Shown here: positions 21,305 to 36,782 of the stretch, in pieces
Numbering within the stretch: the first letter of the stretch is position 1
How the letters are laid out: the number at the start of each line of letters is the position of its first letter
Origin: an uncultured Sediminibacterium sp.
GTDB taxonomy: Bacteria > Bacteroidota > Bacteroidia > Chitinophagales > Chitinophagaceae
Length of the DNA stretch: 64,000 nt
Assembly (NCBI RefSeq): GCF_946481145.1
Contig: NZ_CAMLMJ010000001.1
Span: 248,001 to 312,000, forward strand
Direction: 5' to 3'
Notes under the pieces: generated by a model
What the model was told of the DNA's origin: nothing
Seen by the model: the letters and a program-made list of their open reading frames with translations, nothing else
The model's database searches: none
Program-made: the position numbers and the translations under genes

Positions 21305-21352
21305 GTGGGCCCACCTGGGCTTGAACCAGGGACCCCCTGATTATGAGTCAGG
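21305..21352. repeat. attL core: 48-bp direct repeat with tRNA 3' part
   Basis: The 48 bases from GTGGGCCCACC to ATGAGTCAGG are identical to 36708-36755. They correspond to the tRNA from its anticodon stem to its 3' end on the minus strand, after which the tRNA match stops (AGAAAGAT instead of TGCTCTAA). This is the truncated copy left when an island integrated into the tRNA gene. Confidence 0.92.
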
Positions 21353-21508: not shown

Positions 21509-22738
21509 ATGGAAAATATACCAACCATTACCTTCTTTTTTGATCCTCGCTCAGAAAAAAAAGGCGGAATATTTCCTATTAAACTGAGCGTGTACTATCT
21601 CGGTAAGACAAGGAGGTTTAGAACGAAGTATAGCTTATCACTATCCGACTGGAAAAAAATAAACAGTGCTCGATTGAAAGATGCGAGCTTGAAAGATGTA
21701 AAGAGTGGGTTGGCTAAAGTGGAGCAAAATGCAAAGGCAATTATTGCTAAAATGGAAGAGTTCGATTTTGACGATTTCAAGGCACTCTATTTGGGATCTG
21801 GAAAAAGCAAAAATACAAAAAGAGATTTGGTGGATCTGTACAATGAGATAATTGAAATGAATAGGAAAAAAGGGAATGAGGGATCAGCACGTGCATATCA
21901 GGAATCTCTTAATGCGTTTACTCGATTTAAAAAAGGTCTTTCTTTTAAGGACCTAACTCCTGAGTTTTTGTCTTCTTTTGAAAAAAAATTCTTGGAAAAT
22001 AAAAAGAGTCTTACTACAGTTGGTATATACACCCGTCAATTGAGAGCTGTATATAATGAGGCAATTAATAGAGGTCTGGTAAAAAAAGAATTATACCCAT
22101 TTACGCGCTATAAGATTCCAGGTGGTTATAATACTAAAAAGGCGCTTACAAATTCCGAAATAAAAGCTGTTATGGCTTTTGAGTCGGAATCACCACTTGA
22201 ACAAGAAGCGATTTCATTCTGGAAGCTGTCATACCTATGTGGAGGAATGAATATTGGCGATATTCTCAAACTTAAAAACGAAAACATTCAGGAAAAGTTT
22301 ATTCTTTTTAACCGTTCAAAAACGGTCAATACAAAAAAGTCTGAACAAAAAACAATTCAAATTCCATTGCGCGAAGAAACGAAAGCGATTATACAACAGC
22401 TACGGGCAATTAATTGTCACAAAAAAGACGATTTGATATTTAGCGTATTGAATAGAAAAATGACTCCAAGTGAAGAAAAAGATGCAATTAAATCTTTCAA
22501 TCGAAAAATCAATCAGCAGTTGGAAAAAATAGCAACTAAACTCGAGCTTGGCGGCCGCTTGTCAAATATGACAGCCAGGCATTCATTTGCTACCATGTTG
22601 AAAAGAGGCAATCAGCCTATTGGTATTATTAGCGATATGTTAGGCCATAGTAGTTTAAAAACAACGCAAAATTATTTGGGGAGTTTTACTGATGATACTT
22701 TGTTAAATGCAACAGATGCGCTATTTAACTTTGATTAA
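21509..22738 (+). CDS. Tyrosine recombinase / site-specific integrase
   Basis: 409 residues. An arm-type DNA-binding domain (about 1-95: TITFFFDPRSEKKGGIFPIK), a SAM-like core-binding domain (about 100-200), and the catalytic domain with TARHSFATML (about 355), MLGHSSLKTTQNYL and the nucleophile Tyr near 388. The first catalytic Arg position is Asn (CGGMNIGDILKL), and the usual His of the HxxR box is Met. As far as I recall, such substitutions occur in a subgroup of Bacteroidota integrases. It integrates the island at the tRNA site. It lies just inside attL and transcribes inward. Confidence 0.92.
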   Translation: MENIPTITFFFDPRSEKKGGIFPIKLSVYYLGKTRRFRTKYSLSLSDWKKINSARLKDASLKDVKSGLAKVEQNAKAIIAKMEEFDFDDFKALYLGSGKSKNTKRDLVDLYNEIIEMNRKKGNEGSARAYQESLNAFTRFKKGLSFKDLTPEFLSSFEKKFLENKKSLTTVGIYTRQLRAVYNEAINRGLVKKELYPFTRYKIPGGYNTKKALTNSEIKAVMAFESESPLEQEAISFWKLSYLCGGMNIGDILKLKNENIQEKFILFNRSKTVNTKKSEQKTIQIPLREETKAIIQQLRAINCHKKDDLIFSVLNRKMTPSEEKDAIKSFNRKINQQLEKIATKLELGGRLSNMTARHSFATMLKRGNQPIGIISDMLGHSSLKTTQNYLGSFTDDTLLNATDALFNFD

Positions 22739-22772: not shown

Positions 22773-23774
22773 TTAACTGATCTTTTTATAGTCGGGAAGA
22801 AATTGTTTGATATTTACCCAACCAGAAACGGCACGTTGGTTTCCGCCAATCTCCTTGCCGTAGACTGTTAATACGCCATTTGGCAATAATTCAAGGCGGT
22901 GTTCAATTGTACAATCACCCTTAATAAATGATTTGATGTTGATAAGATTTAATTCCAGAATAGTTCTTGAAGTGATATCAAATTTCTGAACAGTTATTTT
23001 GACAGCTTTCTGATTATCAAAAGCTGTTGTGCCATTTTTTATCCCGGTATAAGGAAGTTTTTGAAATGCAGGTATAACAACTTCATATCCCTTTTGAAAA
23101 TTCAGACCAATTTCAAACGGGCTGACAACAAGTTCGGTATTGTTATACTTGCTTAAGATCTCCGTTCTTGTTTTCTGAATTTCAGGTTGGTTTGAGTTTA
23201 TTTTAAGAAGTTGTGTATAGATCTTACCGACTTCCAGTTCATTGCCTTTCCCCATTTCTGCTTTAGCCTGAAACAGGTAATCCGTTTGAAGATAATCCAG
23301 ATCGTTTATTGCCATCTGTTGATTCGCAGACTTACTTTGGTCGGTTACTAATGTATGGGCAGAAATCACTCTGGCAAATTCCTCAACATAAGCTGTCACA
23401 ACCCCAATATCAGTTAAAGTGACAATATTTTCCCAGTTTCTGTTTTCAGCATAATAGGTCCAGTTGTACGAACCAGTTATGACTTTTTGATCATCAAAAA
23501 TGCAAAACTTATGGTGCACCATCGCATCGCTTGTACTATAATAAAATTTCCCATTTAGATTAATCAATTCTTGAAACGGTACACCCTCTCGTTTATTGTT
23601 GATTCGGTCATTCAGCACAATAAGTTCTACGGAAATGTTTGCCTCACGGATCCTCCTGATGATGGCATCAAAGATATCACGATTGGTAAACCATGTTACT
23701 GCAATCTTTAAACTGCGTGTGCAAATGTCAATTTGCGAAATGATTTCTTTTTGGATATCGGTAAACCTTTGCAA
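22773..23774 (-). CDS. Phospholipase D-like (single HKD) domain protein
   Basis: 333 residues from a TTG start (no in-frame ATG upstream or early). One PLD motif, VHHKFCIFDDQKVITGSYNWT (HxKx4D, about 87), with the fold seen in Nuc-type endonucleases that work as dimers. The C-terminal half (about 150-333) is unassigned and strand-rich. It is the last gene of the leftward restriction operon, 48 bp after hsdR. By context a nuclease that helps attack foreign DNA, or a regulator of the system. Confidence 0.8.
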   Translation of the reverse strand: MQRFTDIQKEIISQIDICTRSLKIAVTWFTNRDIFDAIIRRIREANISVELIVLNDRINNKREGVPFQELINLNGKFYYSTSDAMVHHKFCIFDDQKVITGSYNWTYYAENRNWENIVTLTDIGVVTAYVEEFARVISAHTLVTDQSKSANQQMAINDLDYLQTDYLFQAKAEMGKGNELEVGKIYTQLLKINSNQPEIQKTRTEILSKYNNTELVVSPFEIGLNFQKGYEVVIPAFQKLPYTGIKNGTTAFDNQKAVKITVQKFDITSRTILELNLINIKSFIKGDCTIEHRLELLPNGVLTVYGKEIGGNQRAVSGWVNIKQFLPDYKKIS

Positions 23775-23822: not shown

Positions 23823-26800
23823 TTATCCCGTGATATCATTTGCCATAATCTCTGCCTGTTTCAATATAGTTTCCGTAGCCAGCATTTGCATGTCAGGTGG
23901 ATAGCCATATTTTCTTAAAACTCTTTTGACAGCTATTTTCAATTTTGCTTTTACACTCTCCTTAATTGTCCAGTCTATAGAAGCATTCTGTCGGATAGTC
24001 TCGGTTAATACAACCGCCAGTTCTCTTAGTTTATCCTTTTGCATAAGTTCTACAGCACTATCGTTATCTGAAACTGCTGTATAGAACGCATACTCAAAAT
24101 CTGTCAGGCCAAGCTGCTTTGCATGATTGTCTGTTTCTACAATTTCTTTACTGAGTTTGATTAATTCATCAATCACCTCGGCGGCCGTAAGTATTTTGTT
24201 ATGGTATTTCTGTATGGCATTTTCAAGCATTTCCAGGAATGTCCGGCTTTGGACCAGGTTCTTTTTAGCTCTTACTTTTAACTCATCATTCAACAATTTC
24301 TTTAATACTTCTAACGCTATATTCTTGTGTTCCATTCCTTTCAATTCAAAAAGGAATTCATCTGAAAGAATTGAAATATCCGGCTTCTTGATACCCGCCG
24401 CATCAAATACATCAATGACCTGTTCAGAAACCAATGCTTTGTCAACTACTTGTCGAATAGTGGTTTCAATTTCTTCGTCTGTTTTTCCTGATCCTGTACT
24501 ATCAAACTTTACCAATCTTGCTTTTACAGCTTGGAAAAAAGAAACTTCATCTTTTACATCCATAGCCTGATCATGAGGGATGGCAATGGCAAATGCCTGT
24601 GATAAAGCACTTACTTCGTTTATATATCTCTTCTTGCCATCTTCCAAACCTAAAATATGTTCCTCAGCTGCCAGAATCATCGACAGCTTTTGTGATGTGG
24701 TTGCGTCAAAATATGTTTCATATTCAAAACCATGAAACATGTTGGCTACCACTTCCAGCTTCTCCAGCATTAGTTCAACTGCCTGTTCCTGTGCAATAGT
24801 TGGATCTCCTTTGCCACCGGCATCGGAATAGAATGAAAGTGCTTTTTTCAAATCAGAAGCAATACCCAGGTAATCTACGATCAACCCACCAGGCTTGTCT
24901 TTGTAAACCCTGTTCACCCTGGCAATGGCTTGCATCAGGTTATGCCCCTTCATCGGCTTATCAATGTAGAGGGTATGCATACTGGGGGCGTCAAAGCCGG
25001 TAAGCCACATATCGCGGACGATAACTAATTGTAGCTCATCTGCCGGATTCTTCATTCTGTCAGCTAATACTCTTCTTTGCTCTTTTGTAGTATGGTGTTT
25101 TGAAATTTTGGGACCATCAGAAGAAGCGGAAGTCATGACCACTTTTATCACGCCTTTATTCAAATCGTCTGAATGCCATTCGGGTTTCAACTCTATGATT
25201 GCCTCATACAATTCAGCGGCAATTCTTCTACTCATGGAAACAATCATTCCTTTCCCTTCAAACACTTCCTGCCGCTGGCTAAAATGCGCAATAATATCTT
25301 TCGCTATATTTTTAATCCTGTTCTCACTGCCCACTAAAGCCTCCAGCTGGGCCCATTTCGCTTTTGCCTTTTGTGTATCGGTTAAGTCTTCTTGTGATAA
25401 TTCATCATCGAGTTCATCCACCAACTTCTTGCCTTCTTCGCTTAAAGCCACTTTGGCCAGACGGCTTTCATAATAGATACGAACGGTGGCGCCATCTTCT
25501 ACTGCCTGCGCTATATCATAAATATCTACATAGTTGCCGAATACAGCCGGTGTATTTACATCGGTACTTTCAATGGGTGTACCAGTAAATCCTAAATAGG
25601 TTGCATTAGGCAAGGCATCGCGCATGTACTTTGCAAAGCCGTACACAATTTTCTTACCGATAACATTACCTTTTTCATCTTTTACATCAATGTTCTTAGC
25701 ATTGAACCCGTATTGTGTTCTATGGGCTTCGTCAGCAATGACAACAATATTCTTTCTGTCAGAAAGTTGCTCATATACATTCCCTTCGGTTGGCTGAAAT
25801 TTTTGAATAGTGGTAAATATCACGCCTCCAGAAGCTACTTTCAGCAACTCTTTTAAATGATTTCTATCTTCTGCCTGAACTGGCTCCTGTCTTATCAGTT
25901 GTTTAGACGCTGCAAACGTATCGAACAACTGATCATCCAGATCATTGCGATCTGTAATTACCAATACAGTAGGATTGCCTAATGCGAGTACAATTTTACC
26001 AGTATAAAACACCATTGACAGAGATTTGCCACTTCCCTGTGTATGCCATACAACACCTCCTTTTTTATCCCCAATCGGTTGCTTCTTTACAGCAGGCAGT
26101 CCATAGCTTTCAGGATCTTCCTGTAGTATATTTAATGAGTCTCCAATAGCCACTGAATATCCTGTTGCTCTGAGTGTTGATTCAACAGCACGATTAACAG
26201 CATAATATTGGTGGTAAGCCGCCAGTTTCTTTACGGTGGCGATAGTTGTAATACCAGTTTTAAGATCCCCTTTCTTAGATTTTTCGAACACGATGAAGTG
26301 CCTGATCAAATCAATCAAAGTTGTTTTATTGAGCATGCCATGAATCAATGTCTCTAATTGACTCACCAGATGCGAAGCCTCCGATTTACCATCCGCAGAT
26401 TTCCAGGACATAAACCTGCTGAAACTTGCAGAAATAGAGCCAGCTTTTGCTTCAAGCCCATCTGAGATGATAGAAAAAGCGTTAAAAGTAAATAGTCCGG
26501 GTATAATGGATTTGTAAGTTTCTACTTGTTTAAATGCCGAGCGAATGGTTGTTTTTTCATCTACAGCATTCTTTAACTCTAATAATACAAGTGGTATGCC
26601 ATTAACGAAAAGCAAAAGATCAGGTCTTTTGTTATGCCCATTTTCTATTATGGTGTACTGATTAACGGCCAAAAATTCGTTATTCGTTGGGTTGTTGAAA
26701 TCGATCAACCAAACCCTATCACCTCGATCATCGCCATCAATCCTTTGGGATACCGGTATGCCTTCGGTTAACAGACGATGAAAAGTTTCATTGTTGGTGA

Positions 26801-27047
26801 GCAGTTCCGGCGAAGCGATACGTTGTATCTCTTTGATCGCCTCTTCCTGTACATCAGAAGTAAGGTCAGTGTTTATTTTACGAACTGCATTACGAATCCG
26901 TTGCAGCAGCAATACCTGTTCAAAGCTATCGCGTTCTGGTGTGTCACTGTCAAATGCAATATCGGGACCGTAAATATAATTATAGCCCAATTGTTCGAGG
27001 CGTTCAATTGCGAGCAGTTCAATATGGTTTTCGGAGATATGGGTCAT
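23823..27047 (-). CDS. hsdR: Type I restriction enzyme, R (endonuclease/translocase) subunit
   Basis: 1074 residues, full length for the family. N-terminal nuclease with the PD-(D/E)xK core (RPDLLLFVNGIPLVLLELKN, about 152-172). Superfamily 2 motor with TQGSGKSLSM (Walker A, about 337), DEAHRTQYG (about 438), FTGTPIE, and later QAIARVNRVY (motif VI). C-terminal helical region for contact with the methylase core. It translocates and cuts DNA lacking the host methylation. The start codon is 3 bp after the unknown 267-aa gene, so it is expressed with the defence module before it. Confidence 0.96.
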   Translation of the reverse strand: MTHISENHIELLAIERLEQLGYNYIYGPDIAFDSDTPERDSFEQVLLLQRIRNAVRKINTDLTSDVQEEAIKEIQRIASPELLTNNETFHRLLTEGIPVSQRIDGDDRGDRVWLIDFNNPTNNEFLAVNQYTIIENGHNKRPDLLLFVNGIPLVLLELKNAVDEKTTIRSAFKQVETYKSIIPGLFTFNAFSIISDGLEAKAGSISASFSRFMSWKSADGKSEASHLVSQLETLIHGMLNKTTLIDLIRHFIVFEKSKKGDLKTGITTIATVKKLAAYHQYYAVNRAVESTLRATGYSVAIGDSLNILQEDPESYGLPAVKKQPIGDKKGGVVWHTQGSGKSLSMVFYTGKIVLALGNPTVLVITDRNDLDDQLFDTFAASKQLIRQEPVQAEDRNHLKELLKVASGGVIFTTIQKFQPTEGNVYEQLSDRKNIVVIADEAHRTQYGFNAKNIDVKDEKGNVIGKKIVYGFAKYMRDALPNATYLGFTGTPIESTDVNTPAVFGNYVDIYDIAQAVEDGATVRIYYESRLAKVALSEEGKKLVDELDDELSQEDLTDTQKAKAKWAQLEALVGSENRIKNIAKDIIAHFSQRQEVFEGKGMIVSMSRRIAAELYEAIIELKPEWHSDDLNKGVIKVVMTSASSDGPKISKHHTTKEQRRVLADRMKNPADELQLVIVRDMWLTGFDAPSMHTLYIDKPMKGHNLMQAIARVNRVYKDKPGGLIVDYLGIASDLKKALSFYSDAGGKGDPTIAQEQAVELMLEKLEVVANMFHGFEYETYFDATTSQKLSMILAAEEHILGLEDGKKRYINEVSALSQAFAIAIPHDQAMDVKDEVSFFQAVKARLVKFDSTGSGKTDEEIETTIRQVVDKALVSEQVIDVFDAAGIKKPDISILSDEFLFELKGMEHKNIALEVLKKLLNDELKVRAKKNLVQSRTFLEMLENAIQKYHNKILTAAEVIDELIKLSKEIVETDNHAKQLGLTDFEYAFYTAVSDNDSAVELMQKDKLRELAVVLTETIRQNASIDWTIKESVKAKLKIAVKRVLRKYGYPPDMQMLATETILKQAEIMANDITG

Positions 27048-27050
27048 TTA

Positions 27051-27854
27051 TCAATCTTTTGATGTTTTTAAATGTTTTCCTATATATCCGATATATATGT
27101 GATTATTTTCTGGTAAAAAATGAAAACGAAGATTTCCTGTTTTTATATGAAGTTCGAAGCATTCTCGCCTTCCATCAGGAAGGCTAAAAACTCTCAAATT
27201 TACTAAATCCTCGCGTTGCATTGTTGATTCGGACTCCGGTGAAATATTCAATGAAGTACGATTGTTTGCATCATTATAATTGAAGTTTCCATTAGCCCAG
27301 AATGCATCCACATATTTATCGAGCTCTCGTATTCTGTCAACTATTTGATCAAGATATTGTCCACCAATTGCTAATACTTGGGCTTCAACTGATGGGCATA
27401 GTATGATTTTTGAAAAAAGTTCAGTGCGTCTTTCCCAAAATGTTTCGGGAGTTAGATTCCAATTATTGTTATCTCGAAATGTGGTATAAGAGAACAAATC
27501 TACTATTTGGAATTCTTGGTGCGGGCCAGTAAAATTGATTCCATAAAAAGCATTATAAATCCGATATCGATTATTGAAATCTTGAATAGAGACAATTGGA
27601 TTTTCAATTGATTCTATTTGCTGCAAGAGCTGAGGTAGCACCTGAATCGAAAACTGCTTATCAGTAAAAGCAGAAAAGGCTACTTCCGCAAACGTACCAT
27701 TAGCAACAAGTACATTCCAAATAGAGTCATGCTTATAAAAACTCTCGTTAGCCTGGCGGCCAGTAAAAATAACTTGTAGATTTTGAAGATTGACTTCCAA
27801 ATCGTTAGTTGAAGCATTTACATAGCTCGGATTGAAAAGATAATAGTTAAACAT
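27051..27854 (-). CDS. Unknown protein, third member of the DUF262/DUF3696 module
   Basis: The ATG at 27854 (MFNYYLFNPSYVNASTND) is chosen. It overlaps the ATPase stop by 8 bp, as in other couplings of this operon, giving 267 residues. I do not recognise the family. Visible features: aromatic-rich, no membrane segment, a segment EFQIVDLFSYTTFRDNNN, ILCPSVEAQVLAIGG, and a C-terminal strand-rich part GRRECFELHIKTGNLRFHFLPENNHIYIGYIG that resembles a small beta-fold. Its tight packing behind the ATPase suggests it is that protein's partner or effector. Confidence 0.6.
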   Translation of the reverse strand: MFNYYLFNPSYVNASTNDLEVNLQNLQVIFTGRQANESFYKHDSIWNVLVANGTFAEVAFSAFTDKQFSIQVLPQLLQQIESIENPIVSIQDFNNRYRIYNAFYGINFTGPHQEFQIVDLFSYTTFRDNNNWNLTPETFWERRTELFSKIILCPSVEAQVLAIGGQYLDQIVDRIRELDKYVDAFWANGNFNYNDANNRTSLNISPESESTMQREDLVNLRVFSLPDGRRECFELHIKTGNLRFHFLPENNHIYIGYIGKHLKTSKD

Positions 27855-28983
27855 GCTTCCGCAATCGTAAAAGATGTGAATAATCAAGTTGCGTTTGATC
27901 AAAAAAGCCTTTGGGCCAATCTGTAAGTTCACCCTTATCCTTAATTTTAATAGGCTGAACTTCTGGCTCTGGGCTTGTTTTTATGTGACTGAAAAAGTTT
28001 ACAGTGATTTGATCATTTTTTAACCAATTCTCGGCAACAGCTATTTGAATCCCATTAACTAAATGGTCGCTATGTGTCTCAATAACTATATGTATTCCAG
28101 CGCTGGCGACCATGGATAAAAATCTACCAATTCTAGATTGTGCCGACGGATGCAAATGAGCTTCTGGATTTTCAACAACAAAAAAACATCCCTTCTTTGC
28201 TATTAATCCAGTCGCAATTATTGGGAGGATATAGCTTATGCCAAATCCTAAATTAGTGGAAACTGTAGGGTCGGAAGCTATAAAATGATTTTCAATTAAT
28301 ACTTGAGCACTTAATGTGTTTGGATTTGTTTCGACGCGAACCTTTACTCCTTCCATTATAAAGTCCAACCAATAATTTACCTGGTCAATCAAAAAGTTAG
28401 TTTGAGTCCCCTTAAATCGTCTGTCATCATCTATTTTATAATATCCATTTTCTAAACCGATCAACTGAGCAGTTGTTTCTCCTTGCCAACCCGCGTTTGG
28501 ATAATCAAAAAACTGTAGCGACTGGCTTACTCTCGGACCGAAACGTTCAGCATTCAAATAATAGAACTCTTGCTTAAAAATTGGGAAATTAGCAACATCA
28601 GATTTATCTACTGATTTAGGGGTTAAATGAAGTTGTGTATTCCTATTATCAACATCATATACCACAATAATTTTCTCTCGCTCATTACTTAAACCAATTG
28701 TAAGTTCGCTTACTTCAGCATTTCTGTTTAATACAAAACTACTATTGCCGAGGGCTAAACAATATGCACCATTAAGCTGAACATTAAGGCCATTTATTTT
28801 GTTCAATTGATACATGCCATCTATCCATTCACCACAATGTTCTATCGTTCTTCTTAAATACAGTAGTGCTTGTATAGCGGTACTTTTCCCGTTACCATTT
28901 GCACCAGCCATTACTGTAAGTTGATTGATCTCAATAGAAGCATTTACAAAACACTTAAATTGGTTTATTTTTAATTGATTCAT
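27847..28983 (-). CDS. SMC/OLD-like AAA ATPase with C-terminal DUF3696
   Basis: 378 residues. Walker A GANGNGKST (about 28-37) right after a LKINQFKCF strand typical of ABC/OLD-like ATPases, the family segment GFGISYILPIIATGL, Walker B FFVVENPEAHLHP (about 264), then HIVIETHSDHLVNGIQ. The end (VQPIKIKDKGELTDWPKGFFDQ) matches DUF3696. It starts 4 bp after the DUF262 gene and overlaps the next. Such ATPases act as sensors or motors in defence systems. From memory, DUF3696 ATPases occur in the three-gene Menshen system. Confidence 0.88.
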   Translation of the reverse strand: MNQLKINQFKCFVNASIEINQLTVMAGANGNGKSTAIQALLYLRRTIEHCGEWIDGMYQLNKINGLNVQLNGAYCLALGNSSFVLNRNAEVSELTIGLSNEREKIIVVYDVDNRNTQLHLTPKSVDKSDVANFPIFKQEFYYLNAERFGPRVSQSLQFFDYPNAGWQGETTAQLIGLENGYYKIDDDRRFKGTQTNFLIDQVNYWLDFIMEGVKVRVETNPNTLSAQVLIENHFIASDPTVSTNLGFGISYILPIIATGLIAKKGCFFVVENPEAHLHPSAQSRIGRFLSMVASAGIHIVIETHSDHLVNGIQIAVAENWLKNDQITVNFFSHIKTSPEPEVQPIKIKDKGELTDWPKGFFDQTQLDYSHLLRLRKHV

Positions 28984-28987
28984 TTCT

Positions 28988-30355
28988 TCAAATGTTATTT
29001 ATCAGCTGGTTTGCTGCAGTAAATGCAGCCTGAATATTTGTTTTAGAATTGGTGCTGTATGTCAAGTAGAGAAACAATTCAGTATTTGCAGATACTTTTT
29101 CAGCTAATGGCATCGCCAATGATTCAAATTGAGAGGAAGACTGTACGATATTATTATCTATATTACTAAGAAGTACACTAAAGCTAACAAAAAGAGCTTT
29201 GTTAATCAGTTGTCTATTTGCATCTGAGTTAATATGTTCAACTTTACATTTTCTAAACGAATATCTACCAAATAAGTGATATGCATTTTTCATGGCGTTA
29301 TCAAATAATTCCAAATAATAATTGCTATCAAACTTTCTGTCTTTACTTATTGTTTCTGTCAATGTATTCAACTCTGATTCTATATTCCCGCTATAATTAT
29401 TTAGGGTATTATCAGATGTATATTTCTGATGAAATAAAATAAAACGCAATGCCAGCTCCTGTGCTTCCATGCGAACATCTTTGATACTATGGCCAGTCGC
29501 TTCTTTAAAACTTGATAATGCAGTCATTTTACGAAGAGCGATACGAAGTTCATCGCTTGATAAGCAATTCCTGATCTCTTGCGCATTCAACGGCTGGCCG
29601 CCAGTATTGATTCTTCTAAAAATATCATATTTGAGTTTGAATGGTGAAGATGGGTCTATTACGTTAACAGTGATTTGAGTCATATTAAACCATCTATAAT
29701 ACTTAGCATCTATAGCCTTTTTAGGGTTTTCATGCGTATAAACCTTCCCATTACATTTCTCCCCTAAATATTCGAGCTTTCGTAAATGAAATTTATTGTC
29801 CATGAAATCTCGTATTGTACTTAGTCGTTGCAATCCATCTACTACCGAGATTCTACCTTCATCATCTTGAGCAAAATAAAACATAGGCAAAGGAATTCTC
29901 ATGAGTATAGATTCGATCAATCTGGATTTTCTTTGATTATCCCAAACAAGATTCCGTTGAAAATCAGGAGTCAGATTTATGTCTTTGCTTTCAATCATAT
30001 CATAAATCTGGCGCAATGAGAAGTTTTTTGTATCAACCCTGATCTTATCTGGATCATACGGAGTTACATCGTCTTCATCTTCTGTTTCTGTATCTTCTGA
30101 GCCAAACAAATCATTTGGATTTTGCTCAACAAGCCACTCTTCAATAACTTCATTTAATTTATCCTCTGGTTCATCAAGATCTGGATGTTTGTCAATAATT
30201 TTGAACTTACTGCCCACTAACTCAATAGCAAGATGAACCCGTCCCCCGGACAAAGGGACAAATCTGATTATATTTTCTTCCTCTTTTTTATCAGTGAATC
30301 GAAGAGGCTTTAGGCGAACTTCAATATCACCTTTTAGTTTTATGCTGATTTCCAT
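28988..30355 (-). CDS. DUF262 (ParB/GmrS-like) domain protein
   Basis: 455 residues. DUF262 core: LRQIYDMIESKDINLTPDFQRNLVW, RKSRLIESILMRIPLPMFYF, DGLQRLSTIRDF (about 174, the DGxQR motif that binds and hydrolyses nucleotide in GmrSD-type enzymes), YDIFRRINTGGQPLNAQEIRN. An acidic N-terminal extension (about 60-105, EDTETEDEDD) and a helical C-terminus of unknown role. No DUF1524 HNH domain is seen, so DNA cutting by itself is unlikely. First gene of a three-gene set inside the type I operon, 24 bp after hsdS. Confidence 0.88.
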   Translation of the reverse strand: MEISIKLKGDIEVRLKPLRFTDKKEEENIIRFVPLSGGRVHLAIELVGSKFKIIDKHPDLDEPEDKLNEVIEEWLVEQNPNDLFGSEDTETEDEDDVTPYDPDKIRVDTKNFSLRQIYDMIESKDINLTPDFQRNLVWDNQRKSRLIESILMRIPLPMFYFAQDDEGRISVVDGLQRLSTIRDFMDNKFHLRKLEYLGEKCNGKVYTHENPKKAIDAKYYRWFNMTQITVNVIDPSSPFKLKYDIFRRINTGGQPLNAQEIRNCLSSDELRIALRKMTALSSFKEATGHSIKDVRMEAQELALRFILFHQKYTSDNTLNNYSGNIESELNTLTETISKDRKFDSNYYLELFDNAMKNAYHLFGRYSFRKCKVEHINSDANRQLINKALFVSFSVLLSNIDNNIVQSSSQFESLAMPLAEKVSANTELFLYLTYSTNSKTNIQAAFTAANQLINNI

Positions 30356-30379: not shown

Positions 30380-31552
30380 TTAATTATTTGTTTCCACTCT
30401 GACCTCTCCACTCATCAGCTTCGGCAATAAAGTGTCCCTTAAAACGGTGAGGGTGTGAATTTGGTTGTTGTTGCTGATTATTTTTTCAATCAATGGTTCG
30501 GCATTATCAGTCATTGTTTTTAGTTCTTGTGAAGTGGGTATTAATACTGCTGCTTCGTCTAAATCTCCACGCTTAATATGCCCCATCGTAGTAGCATGAC
30601 TCGCTGCTATTGAAATGAACTCTTCCAAATGGTGTTTGCACCACAAATAATAAAACCACTTAGGGAAATTATCGGATGTTACCTTAAACAAGTGTTGATT
30701 TAAGATACAGTCCTGACCATCCCAAATTTTAACCATCAATGAAGCAGACCAGGCAAATATTATATCGCCATTTCTCACAACATATTCAGGTTTTACATCA
30801 TTACTTGCCCAATCTGAGTTATTAGTAATTCCACCGCTTAATTCCTTTATTTTCAGAACAGGCAGCTTGTCTATTTCATTTTTCGGAGGAAATTTTTGGC
30901 AAGCCAACCCGTTTAAAAAATTTGCCATTTGGCTCAGTGGCATAGTATCCCAATCCTCCTTTGCCCCCTCCACAAACCACTGCCTAAACAATGTTTCCGC
31001 CATTTTTTCTAAAGTTGCATTTTGGCGTTGCAGCAGGTCTTTTTTATCGTCTAAACTGCTGAGGATAGAGGCAATAGCGGTTTGTTCTGGGAGAGGGGGA
31101 AGAAGAATGTCTAAAGATTCAATATCATTAGGTTTCAAGGATGGATATGCAGAAGTAGAAGCCTCTGCAATGGAATGTAGATATTCTGTTGTTTGTGACT
31201 GCGTTAAATTGTAATAAAGAAATAGCGGATCAAGTAGTTCTTTTTTGCAAGTTATAGTTACAAACCCAGTAGAGACTACTAAATTGTCTGGAGGATCCTT
31301 TATAAAGCCATAATGAAGTTGGTTCGGTCTTACCGCTGAGTAAATAATATCATTTTCATCAACTAATCTTTTTGCTCGACTTGGAGCCTCTTTCAAACTT
31401 AATTTTTGAAATGAATCAATGCGGTTACAGGTTATTGAACCTGTATCTAAATATGATATATTTGAGTAGGGATAGCTGTTATTAATACTCTTCCTGTTAG
31501 TCTCGATACCATCGCCTAATCTAAAATCTTTCCACTCTTTCATATTACCCAT
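30380..31552 (-). CDS. hsdS: Type I restriction enzyme, S (specificity) subunit
   Basis: 390 residues with two target-recognition halves. The first (about 1-150) ends in DIESLDILLPPLPEQTAIASILSSLDDKKDLLQRQNATLEKM, the conserved helical spacer. The second (about 190-345) ends similarly (LIPTSQELKTM, then NNNQIHTLTVLRDTLLPKLMSGEVRV). It decides which bipartite DNA site the HsdM/HsdR complex reads. It overlaps the 86-aa gene by 8 bp. A start at 31543 is equally possible. Confidence 0.94.
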   Translation of the reverse strand: MGNMKEWKDFRLGDGIETNRKSINNSYPYSNISYLDTGSITCNRIDSFQKLSLKEAPSRAKRLVDENDIIYSAVRPNQLHYGFIKDPPDNLVVSTGFVTITCKKELLDPLFLYYNLTQSQTTEYLHSIAEASTSAYPSLKPNDIESLDILLPPLPEQTAIASILSSLDDKKDLLQRQNATLEKMAETLFRQWFVEGAKEDWDTMPLSQMANFLNGLACQKFPPKNEIDKLPVLKIKELSGGITNNSDWASNDVKPEYVVRNGDIIFAWSASLMVKIWDGQDCILNQHLFKVTSDNFPKWFYYLWCKHHLEEFISIAASHATTMGHIKRGDLDEAAVLIPTSQELKTMTDNAEPLIEKIISNNNQIHTLTVLRDTLLPKLMSGEVRVETNN

Positions 31553-31805
31553 TTATCGGTTGTGTACTAATCCAATGTATCTGAATCTCATTTCCAATTT
31601 CACTAACAGTAAAACCCAAACTTTTCTTTTTCAGTACATCCCTACCTCGAAACTTGAATGTTTTAGAAAAGGGTTTGCATTCGTGTTTTATATTCACCAC
31701 AAGTGTATCATTAGGCGTAATGCCGTTAATCGCTACACGGTAATTGAGGCTGGTTGCCTGCCTGGTGTTCGGCCTGATGGTTCGGTTCCTGATGATCTCA
31801 GCCAT
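31545..31805 (-). CDS. Small protein coupled between hsdM and hsdS
   Basis: 86 residues, overlapping hsdM by 8 bp and hsdS by 8 bp, so translation is coupled. Basic N-terminus ([16 protein letters not shown]) and a mostly strand-forming body ([37 protein letters not shown]). No known motif. Overlap at both ends argues that it is real and tied to the methylase complex. Confidence 0.7.
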
Positions 31806-33327
31806 TGGTAGTAAGATTTATCTTTTGCAAATTCGCTTTAATAATATCGTTTAGGGTCGCCTCTTCTTTTAGTTGCTCTTCCAACTTGGCTTTTAAAGCA
31901 CTAAAGCGTTCGGTAAAATTGAAATCATCTTCTTCATCAGGCAATCCCACATAGCGGCCTGGAGTTAGTACATAATCAAGTTCCGCTACTTTAGATATGG
32001 GGGTAGCTACACAGAAACCCGCAATGTCTTCATAATTGCCATCAGGGTTTCTCCAGTTGTGGTAGGTGCCGGCAATTTTTTGTATATCATCAGCACTTAA
32101 TTCACGGGTTCTACGGTTAATCAGGTGGCCCAGGTTTCGTGCATCAATAAAAAGAATCTCTTTACTTCTGTCTCTGAATTTGCCGTTTTTCCGGTTGCGG
32201 CTCATAAACCAAAGAGCTGCGGGTATTTGTGTATTAAGGAACAGTTTTGCGGGGAGGTTTACAATGCAATCAATCAAACCATTTTCTATCAACGCCTTTC
32301 TTATTTCCCCTTCGCCGGATGTTTTTGAGGTTAAAGCTCCTTTCGCCAATACCACACCCGCCTGTCCATTGGGCGCTAAATGATAGATAAAATGCTGCAG
32401 CCACGCAAAGTTGGCATTACCGGTGGGCGGCACCCCATATTGCCAGCGGCCATCAGTACGCATTAGGTCGCCGCCCCAGTCACTCACGTTAAAGGGTGGA
32501 TTTGCAATAATATAATCGGCTTTCAAGTCTTTATGGGCATCATTCAGAAAACTTCCCTCATTGTTCCACTTTACCTGTGAGGCATCAATACCACGAATGG
32601 CCAGGTTCATCTTTGCCAGTCGCCAGGTAGTTTGGTTGCTTTCCTGCCCATATATAGAAATATCATTTACCCGGCCCTGGCGATCGGCCACAAATTTTTC
32701 ACTCTGTACAAACATACCGCCGCTGCCGCAGCAGGGGTCAAACACCCTGCCTTTATAAGGCTCCAGCATTTCTACAAGCAATTCAACCACAGATCTGGGT
32801 GTATAGAACTGGCCGCCCTTCTTGCCTTCCGCCAAAGCAAATTCACCCAGAAAATATTCAAACACATGTCCCAGTAGATCTGCACTTCGGGCTTTGGCAT
32901 CACCCAATGCAATGTTTCCAATAAGATCTATCAATTCACCCAAACTGGTAGGATCAAGGTTTTGCCGGGCAAATACTTTGGGTAATACACCTTTCAGGGA
33001 TGGGTTTTCTTTTTCAATTGCATCCATGGCATCGTCTACAAACTTGCCAATTTCAGGCTGTTTGGCTTTTGACTGGAGGTAGATCCAGCGGGCGTCCTGC
33101 GGAACAAAGAATACATTTTCGGCTTTGTACTCGTCTTTGTCTTCCGGATCGGCACCATTGGTTTCATCCGCCTTTAGTTTGGCGTACAAGTCTTCAAAAG
33201 CATCCGAAATATATTTCAGGAAGATCAGGCCCAGTACAATATGCTTGTACTCGGCAGCATCAATGTTTTTGCGAAGTTTATCAGCAGCTTTCCAAAGGGT
33301 TTTTTCTAATGCCAGGGTATCACTCAT
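31798..33327 (-). CDS. hsdM: Type I restriction enzyme, M (N6-adenine methylase) subunit
   Basis: 509 residues. N-terminal helical HsdM domain ([35 protein letters not shown]), SAM-binding motif [11 protein letters not shown] (about 197) and catalytic NPPFN (about 279, motif IV of N6-adenine methylases). With HsdS it methylates the recognition sequence and, with HsdR, forms the restriction complex. First gene of a leftward operon of about 10.5 kb. A promoter lies at 33361-33391. Confidence 0.96.
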
Positions 33328-35245: not shown

Positions 35246-36172
35246 TCATATTTTATTAACAAGCGAGTTTTGATACATTTCGCCAGCATATATACTGTGT
35301 TGAAATGCATCACATATAAATTCATTGAATATCTGCTCTGATTTTCTAATAATGATTTCATTTACCATAGGTAAGCCTGCTTTTTTATGTAAGGTTTTTA
35401 GTTTGCGTTTGGTATTGTATCTTTTACAACTTCTTCCTGAATCGCCAGTTTTACCCCATTGATAGCCATTCATGCATTTATTCACAAAGATTTGTTCACG
35501 GTTTATCTCTTCGGTAATTAATTCAGGGTTAACAGTGGTTAAATTCCCCATACATTTAATAAAGTATTGAAAACAATTCTTGATTGTAGTTTCATTTAGT
35601 AAACTGTCGAGTGTTGTTACTCTTAATTTTCTTAATTGGTAAGATTTTTTCATTTTAATCTCAATTCTGGCAAGCAATTCATCGTCACCGATATGTCTTC
35701 CTTTGTCGTAAATTTTTATTTGAATATAACTACTTGAGATTGCAATTTCGTCACCTCTACCTAAATGATAATTTCTCTTATAATCCATAGTCCTGCAGCC
35801 GATAATGCTATGAATAAAAAAATCTGTATTAATATTCGGATAGTTAAATCCTATTTCGAGATTTATTATTAAAGAAGCGGAAGGGTCAATCAAATAATAA
35901 GAGGATAGAAATTCGATTGTTTTTTTGATTTCAGTGAGTGAAATATTTTGGCCTCGCTTATTTCTCTTCAAAAGTTCGTTGAAACTGAAATTGTATTCGA
36001 TATGATATCTGTAAATTTTTATCTCCAATCCATTTGACGGATCTTTAAATAATCTTGGATACAAACAATTTGGAAATTTCTTCGGGCAGAATGGGCCGAA
36101 AATAAATCGACTTTCCAAATCTGATGTAATAGATCCAATTATTGGCTGAATGAGCTTCACAAAATCGACCAT
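35246..36172 (-). CDS. Putative Rep-like protein of the island
   Basis: 308 residues. The order SASLIINLEIGFNYP, then SYIQIKIYDKGRHIGDDELLARIEIKMKKSYQL, then VTTLDSLLNE resembles the rolling-circle replication initiators of small Bacteroidota plasmids and phages (a strand-rich core with a Tyr before DKG), though I cannot confirm an HUH pair. A basic Cys-containing C-terminus (GRSCKRYNTKRKLKTLHKKAG) suits DNA binding. It starts 2 bp after the excisionase-like gene, and its 3' end faces the inverted repeat, a possible origin. It may replicate the excised circle. Confidence 0.45.
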   Translation of the reverse strand: MVDFVKLIQPIIGSITSDLESRFIFGPFCPKKFPNCLYPRLFKDPSNGLEIKIYRYHIEYNFSFNELLKRNKRGQNISLTEIKKTIEFLSSYYLIDPSASLIINLEIGFNYPNINTDFFIHSIIGCRTMDYKRNYHLGRGDEIAISSSYIQIKIYDKGRHIGDDELLARIEIKMKKSYQLRKLRVTTLDSLLNETTIKNCFQYFIKCMGNLTTVNPELITEEINREQIFVNKCMNGYQWGKTGDSGRSCKRYNTKRKLKTLHKKAGLPMVNEIIIRKSEQIFNEFICDAFQHSIYAGEMYQNSLVNKI

Positions 36173-36174
36173 GG

Positions 36175-36456
36175 CTAATTTTCATGCTGTTGATTTTTTA
36201 TCCATCTTGTCAACTCTCCGCGATAAAAGATCAATTTTTTACTCCCAAGTGGTTTATGGAAAGGAATTGTTTTTTGTGAAGTGTGTGTATAAATCGCGGA
36301 CCGACTCAACCCTGTCATTTGCATTGCCATTTCAATTCCTCCAACTTCAGCGACATATTCTTGTGTTTGTTTGGTCAGCAACTTTTCTCCAATAGCATTG
36401 ACTTGCTCAGTAAGCATATCAAGTTTTGCTTCTAAAGTTTCAAATGGATTGTTCAT
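36175..36456 (-). CDS. Excisionase-like HTH protein
   Basis: The ATG at 36456 (MNNPFETLEAKLDMLTEQ) is preferred to a GTG at 36474. 93 residues: a short coiled N-terminus, then a MerR/Xis-type winged HTH (GGIEMAMQMTGLSRSAIYTHTSQKTIPFHKPLGSKKLIFYRGEL). Such proteins direct the integrase to excise the element. It lies 252 bp inside attR and heads an operon with the Rep-like gene. Confidence 0.85.
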   Translation of the reverse strand: MNNPFETLEAKLDMLTEQVNAIGEKLLTKQTQEYVAEVGGIEMAMQMTGLSRSAIYTHTSQKTIPFHKPLGSKKLIFYRGELTRWIKNQQHEN

Positions 36457-36636
36457 TATTAACGATTGTTGCACAAACCTATATTCAACTTCTGGAAAAA
36501 GGAAGCGACACCAATGGGCTTTTACTATTTAGTAAATTCAAGAAATATCAACAATGAAGAATAACCTATTTGGCCGCCGTCATTCGATAAGATGCAAATA
36601 TTTGCAGTTAATGGTTAAGAATGCTTTGCAGAAGAG

Positions 36637-36707: not shown

Positions 36708-36755
36708 GTGGGCCCACCTGGGCTTGAACCAGGGACCCCCTGATTATGAGTCAGG
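36708..36755. repeat. attR core: 48-bp direct repeat within the tRNA gene
   Basis: Identical to 21305-21352. It covers the tRNA from the anticodon stem through the 3' end and ends where the D-side of the tRNA begins. Confidence 0.92.
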
Positions 36756-36782
36756 TGCTCTAACCAGCTGAGCTATAGGCCC
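36709..36782 (-). tRNA. tRNA with CAU anticodon (Met or lysidine-type Ile2)
   Basis: 74 nt on the minus strand: acceptor GGGCCTA/TGGGCCC (one G-U), D arm AGCTCAGCTGGTTAGAGC, anticodon stem CCTGA/TCAGG with loop CTCATAA (CAU at 36746-36748), T arm CCTGG-TTCAAGC-CCAGG, discriminator A, no encoded CCA. Elongator Met and minor Ile tRNAs both have CAU. The GGGCC acceptor leans to Ile2, but I cannot decide. Confidence 0.95.

Follow-up and report, generated by a model that had tools for sequence, protein, structure and literature searches.

Menshen is a defence system of three genes, NsnA, NsnB and NsnC, reportedly described by Millman et al. in 2022 and said to be taken up again by Li et al. in 2025, in a paper with a title on Menshen domain polymorphism that may already say all of what is presented here. 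In the present study, we analyzed 64,000 nt of DNA from an uncultured Sediminibacterium sp. (contig NZ_CAMLMJ010000001.1, positions 248,001 to 312,000; hereafter the window, with positions counted from its first letter), where a three-gene module at 27051–30355 on the minus strand lies between hsdS and hsdR of a type I restriction-modification operon. In the part of their article concerning Menshen, Mariano and Blower state that protection is lost when the DUF262 gene is mutated or deleted (PMC10952713), and a 2026 review gives the mechanism, in its passage on the system, as unknown (PMC12926258).

A set of genes with the same architecture was presented by Gerdes (mBio 2025, PMC11980606) as ptuXYZ, which, according to the relevant section, encodes a DUF262 protein and a P-loop ATPase resembling PtuA, along with a third protein of two domains, in which a PIN-like domain, described as devoid of catalytic residues, is joined to a YoeB-like BECR domain. 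The likeness of the window module is to this published description, by architecture, with nsnA, nsnB and nsnC corresponding to ptuX, ptuY and ptuZ, and with our NsnC model in agreement with that section over its C-terminal half and in weak agreement over its N-terminal half. The conservation of NsnC residues reported below was absent from section 26 of PMC11980606. Because the architectures agree and the word ‘Menshen’ was counted zero times in that paper, the two literatures appear to describe overlapping systems under two names.

Defence genes embedded in type I operons have also been encountered before. A preprint by Payne et al. from 2024 reportedly deals with such embedded defences, and RloF of Campylobacter jejuni is said to have been treated by Miller in 2005. 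DarTG2 is a DNA ADP-ribosylating toxin–antitoxin pair, while PrrC and RloC are hsd-linked single polypeptides combining AAA_13 with a HEPN nuclease; these resemble the window module in the coupling of an ABC-type ATPase to an RNase effector and in the hsd linkage, but they differ from it in being one polypeptide with AAA_13, for which NsnB gave no match. In the sections of the following papers that concern these loci, RloF of C. jejuni is placed between hsdS and hsdR (PMC4619093), thus likewise a DUF262 gene in that position, and DarTG2, an independent defence system that is not Menshen, occupies the same slot on the RRDM island of enteropathogenic Escherichia coli (EPEC), with the site called a potential recombination hotspot (PMC12255303). 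TgvAB of the Vibrio cholerae island VPI-2 is given there as two GmrSD-related genes lying within a type I operon, which are responsible for phage protection and active on phages with hypermodified genomes; against several phages, this protection was weaker by 10- to 100-fold when the remainder of the cluster was missing (PMC11411939). Our main reading of the window, to which we assign a probability of about 70%, is that it contains a Menshen cassette placed in the hsdS–hsdR slot on an island integrated at tRNA-Met, in which NsnA and NsnB would gate an NsnC RNase that acts in parallel to restriction.

Identity of the three genes

Gene calls and Pfam matches confirmed the arrangement given in the initial annotation, with a DUF262 gene, a DUF3696-ATPase gene and a gene for a protein of 267 amino acids (aa) between hsdS and hsdR. 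All three products matched the three Menshen models of PADLOC in the same order as in the published system, namely NsnA (28988–30355, minus strand, 455 aa) to PDLC03877 (1.5e-109), NsnB (27847–28983, minus strand, 378 aa) to PDLC03878 (7.9e-101) and NsnC (27051–27854, minus strand, 267 aa) to PDLC03912 (1.3e-42), with the last search run on a 293-aa open reading frame (ORF) and PDLC03912 being the best for this protein among several NsnC models held by PADLOC. The A-B-C gene order was also found in related loci and, since full-length homologues exist in that same order, the arrangement of the three genes is not due to chance. By these profile matches the module is the Menshen system as already published, and the previously unassigned third gene is now settled as nsnC. 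The statement in the initial annotation that DUF3696 ATPases occur in Menshen thus agreed with PADLOC, but its suggestion of a variant or a distinct system, and with it the novelty, was not upheld, since all three proteins match a published system, the architecture is that of ptuXYZ and the hsdS–hsdR embedding is already in print. The window copy differs from Menshen as described by its position inside an hsd operon, and is a further example of the system at a known kind of site.

With regards to domains, GmrSD_N (2e-25) was the sole Pfam family found in NsnA at E-values up to 1, whereas NsnB, an OLD/AbiEii-like ABC-type ATPase, matched AAA_15, AAA_21 and DUF3696 (2.6e-09). NsnC had no Pfam match above cut-off, and neither NsnA nor NsnC had any NCBIfam match at E-values up to 0.1. 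The motif DGLQR was identical in 23 of 23 aligned NsnA sequences, compared with (I/V)DGQQR as reported for GmrS in the corresponding part of PMC10952713, and the Walker A motif GxNxxGKS/T and the ENPE-H-HP motif were kept in all 23 aligned NsnB sequences. Searched against sequences in the PDB, NsnA gave no match at E-values up to 1 and NsnB a single one, to the OLD-family protein 6p74 (4.8e-05); the single match of NsnC, to the peptide arginase 8brp (E-value 0.019), was off-target, and placing NsnC by sequence in a family known from the PDB was hence rejected.

Other identities were also rejected, based upon Pfam families searched at E-values up to 1. A type IV restriction enzyme of the GmrSD or BrxU kind was discarded because no DUF1524 (GmrSD_C) or HNH domain was found in NsnA, an OLD or Gabija nuclease because no TOPRIM family was found in NsnB, and PrrC/RloC because NsnB and NsnC gave no AAA_13 and no HEPN, respectively.

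The genes are tightly packed, with a 24-nt gap between hsdS and nsnA, a 4-nt gap between nsnA and nsnB, an 8-nt overlap between nsnB and nsnC and a 3-nt gap between nsnC and hsdR. Junctions of at most 4 bp or overlaps, as initially annotated, thus apply to nsnA/nsnB and nsnB/nsnC but not to the hsdS junction, and what had been taken as a 3-bp overlap of the last gene with the leader of hsdR is a gap of the same length. Mechanical ORF calling placed the nsnC start at the GTG at 27932, giving 293 aa, but the ATG at 27854, giving 267 aa, is to be preferred, as residues M1, F2 and N3 each show at least 90% conservation across 58 sequences. The spacing of 3–24 nt suggests that the hsd and nsn genes share one transcript, and the earlier proposal that the type I operon houses a self-contained antiphage module was supported, with shared transcription being judged from that spacing.

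Predicted fold and conserved residues of NsnC

The AlphaFold (AF2) model of full NsnC had a predicted local distance difference test score (pLDDT) of 93.6, and the C-terminal domain modelled alone reached a pLDDT of 94.6 and a predicted template modelling score (pTM) of 0.88. All 50 of the 50 VIA structure matches listed for this domain (residues 137–267, encoded at 27054–27446, minus strand) were of the RelE/ParE superfamily, ParE structures included, and the C-terminal half of NsnC is accordingly predicted to have the RelE/YoeB (BECR) fold, in support of the effector role initially annotated as possible for this protein. The N-terminal half is possibly PIN-like in the model. Within residues 1–134 we found acidic columns, unmapped to a PIN site, at E20 (57/58) and D65 (56/58), in addition to Asp or Glu in 58/58 at column 37 and in 55/58 at column 57.

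For the analysis of conservation, one NsnC ORF was used from each of 72 loci, including the window. The C-terminal domain was obtained from 68 of these, with L008, L033, L067 and L068 left out because they either lacked a match to the C-terminal model or had one that stopped short, and merging of duplicates (L070 with L011, L072 with L012) resulted in 66 distinct domains. Arg221, His236 and Arg243 were each present in 66/66, with E207 in 64/65, H261 in 65/66 and K238 in 63/66. These six near-invariant polar residues could form an RNase site. In the YoeB family, found at 13 places, Glu, Arg and a C-terminal His were present in all 11 ORFs read, with the remaining two being L102, which has a stop before the His, and L105; we take these three residues to be the catalytic E46, R65 and H83 of YoeB. 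That NsnC would be an RNase is thus suggested by its predicted fold plus conservation, and the near-invariant residues open a direct way to test whether Menshen kills through RNA cleavage.

Three observations temper this suggestion. The hhalign probabilities of NsnC against YoeB were weak, at 11.8 and 32.7, with the best of 60 shuffles reaching 16.5; the NsnC–YoeB profile alignment left the conserved residues out of register; and in the closest NsnAB relative (L073, identical to L108) the NsnC protein carries Asp in place of E207 and Lys in place of H261. The RelE-fold domain might instead be a gyrase poison like ParE, or a non-catalytic dock, with NsnA doing the killing. This would fit with the ParE structures among the VIA matches, with the one relative departing at both positions and with PtuX being called a putative nuclease in the section of PMC11980606 that treats it, but the near-invariance of six polar residues speaks against it, as does the statement in the same source that the catalytic residues of BECR RNases are missing from ParE, and no DUF1524/HNH domain was found in NsnA using Pfam. 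We consider this alternative unlikely and continue with NsnC as a putative RNase.

For the mechanism, we infer the following trigger, gating and RNase steps. NsnA, a predicted nucleoside triphosphatase of the DUF262 family with ParB/Srx fold, and the ABC-type ATPase NsnB would sense infection or phage DNA, keeping NsnC inactive until triggered and then releasing it, whereupon the RelE/YoeB-fold domain would cut RNA, with mRNA at the ribosome as the probable substrate, and translation in the infected cell would thereby cease before the phage spreads. The restriction enzyme and Menshen would thereby constitute two independent layers from a shared transcript, the former directed at unmethylated DNA and the latter at phages that survive restriction.

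Two side observations concern NsnC. In the relative having Asp and Lys at E207 and H261 (L108:10376-11200), nsnC may have been swapped or altered independently of nsnAB. The NsnC C-terminal domain was also found at the end of actinobacterial stop-to-stop ORFs of ~550–800 aa (L052, L055–L058, L060, L061, L063 and L064), in loci where NsnA and NsnB were undetected; the ORFs scanned in 3 of 10 such loci had no Pfam domain over cut-off.

Occurrence of the module inside and outside hsd operons

Searching with the NsnC alignment gave 64 genome loci, among which 15 (L001–L014 and L021) matched from residue 1 and were counted as the same subfamily. The module lies between hsdS and hsdR in four of these 15 (L005, L011, L012 and L014), and in a fifth (L008) hsdM and hsdS are upstream with the contig ending downstream. 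Profiles detected no hsd gene within flanks of ~1.4–10 kb in eight (L002, L003, L004, L007, L009, L010, L013 and L021), and the two others (L001 and L006) have no hsdR downstream, with the locus beginning near a contig end. Outside the subfamily, L048 is preceded by hsdM and hsdS, with hsdR lying 3.3 kb downstream, L044 is preceded by hsdS and then meets a contig end, and hsdS comes after L019, while no hsd gene was found in 19.5 kb around L073 (L108), the nearest relative by NsnA and NsnB.

On an NsnA plus NsnB tree of 23 rows, the embedded state needs at least four changes across the five embedded and nine free-standing rows, or five if L001 and L006 are added, and a single clade of the five embedded rows was rejected in the approximately unbiased test (p-AU 1.7e-73). 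Among the relatives compared, the nearest HsdR is that of L012 (71% identity), but the nearest NsnB is that of L005 (73%, with 46% for L012), and in L014 an NsnB with 51% identity is found next to an HsdR with 24%; given these disagreements, HsdR and NsnB are not co-evolving. Because embedded and hsd-free relatives both occur and the tree needs at least four to five switches, the module is, as judged from sequence comparison, a portable cassette that moves independently of its host operon and is not part of the restriction enzyme.

The same data bear on a different possibility, patterned upon PrrC, which is located beside EcoprrI and which the Hsd complex keeps silent until an anti-restriction protein appears. 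By analogy, the Hsd complex might restrain NsnC, which a phage anti-restriction protein disabling Hsd would then set free. The position inside the hsd operon with junctions of 3–24 nt would agree with such a guard function, the combination of an ABC-type ATPase with an RNase-fold effector resembles the logic of PrrC, and AAA_13, presumably of PrrC/RloC type, occupies the same slot in another operon (L127). Nevertheless, the lack of detected hsd genes in the flanks of eight of the 15 same-subfamily loci and around L108, together with the discordant nearest relatives and identities of HsdR and NsnB, argues against it, and we regard it as quite improbable. We also see little probability in its wider form, where the restriction enzyme and the embedded Menshen would be coupled, Hsd loss, caused for instance by a phage anti-restriction protein, would set off the NsnC RNase, and the hsdS–hsdR slot would be a general dock for guard effectors and thereby more than a recombination hotspot. 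The portable cassette acting in parallel to restriction is thus the reading that we retain.

NsnB matches were found in 54 of 395 genomes, with an NsnA neighbour in 15 of the 30 loci returned, which is not a count of Menshen systems. On one contig (G302:C20, with L068 and L121), a free Menshen set and an hsdR of the window family are ~12 kb apart, with the set lying near the hsd operon but outside it.

Cargo of the hsdS–hsdR slot

Relatives of the window HsdR, at E-values up to 1e-150, were found at 82 places in 74 of the 395 genomes, all of one phylum. Upstream DNA was examined for 40 of these places (L109–L148), picked by rank and available flank, with the Menshen carriers L011 and L012 left out. 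An hsdS gene was found in 36 of the 40, with the gap between hsdS and hsdR exceeding 300 bp in 33 of the 36; the hsdM–hsdS gap exceeded 300 bp in 18 of 32 and is therefore also used. A full NsnABC set was found in the slot in none of the 36 operons.

A total of 74 interposed ORFs with lengths of 100 aa or more were listed, with 30 scanned using Pfam and 10 of those 30 also using PADLOC. The cargo included Shedu (L110), Schlafen AlbA_2 (L113), Abi_C (L116), PD-T4-2 (L119), AAA_13 (L127), TIR-STAND (L131), SIR2 (L133) and OLD-TOPRIM (L134), as well as RhuM (L123, L145 and L146), Fic (L136, L137 and L146) and GmrSD (L137 and L138). Not obviously related to defence were DUF3307 with SatD (L109), DUF1828/1829 (L115), a phosphorylase (L139) and IrrE-like proteins (L125 and L140). 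Among the 30 ORFs, six had no Pfam match at 0.001 (L112, L114, L117, L124, L126 and L130) and one (L140:1791-2873) had only a match below cut-off. The hsdS–hsdR slot is a known cargo site with varied genes, many being from known defence families, and this census within one type I family carries the hotspot idea from E. coli to another bacterial phylum.

Carrier element and neighbouring genes

Two 48-bp att repeats in direct orientation flank the region, one inside tRNA-Met (36708–36755; tRNA at 36708–36782, minus strand) and the other an exact copy of this 3′ part of the tRNA at 21305–21352. Just inside the latter is a tyrosine recombinase (integrase; 21509–22738, plus strand; Phage_integrase 3.6e-14, Phage_int_SAM_5 2.8e-18), and just inside the former an AlpA/HTH_17 regulator, a probable excisionase (36175–36474, minus strand; Phage_AlpA 1.3e-06). 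As the repeats enclose both recombinase and regulator, the hsd–Menshen operon is interpreted as cargo of a 15.4-kb element integrated at tRNA-Met. A 308-aa protein of the element (35246–36172, minus strand) had no Pfam or NCBIfam match above cut-off.

The host operon has a complete type I set, each subunit with its own motifs: HsdM (31798–33327, minus strand; N6_Mtase 3.7e-107 in Pfam) with NPPF, HsdS (30380–31552, minus strand, 390 aa; Methylase_S 2.6e-31) and HsdR (23823–27047, minus strand; HSDR_N, SWI2_SNF2 and T1RH-like_C) with the ELK nuclease motif, GSGKS and DEAH. The island context might suggest that the three nsn genes are mere passengers having lost their defence function, but the frames and motifs of nsnA and nsnB are intact, the nsnC residues are conserved, the hsd motifs are present and conservation among relatives is strong, making this most improbable in our view.

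An 86-aa ORF (31545–31805, minus strand) shares 8 nt with hsdM and another 8 nt with hsdS; searches of PADLOC, Pfam and NCBIfam gave no match for it at the cut-offs used, and phmmer (E-value 0.01) detected no homologue among the fetched loci. A promoter scan found 32 sites compared with 33.2 expected. Terminator-like sites numbered 14 compared with 7.3 ± 2.5 expected, with those on the operon strand within the hsd–nsn genes being intragenic. Directly after hsdR follows a gene for a PLD-family protein (22773–23774, minus strand; PLDc_2 1.2e-21 in Pfam), which has a weak likeness to DrmC of DISARM (2.3e-08 in PADLOC).

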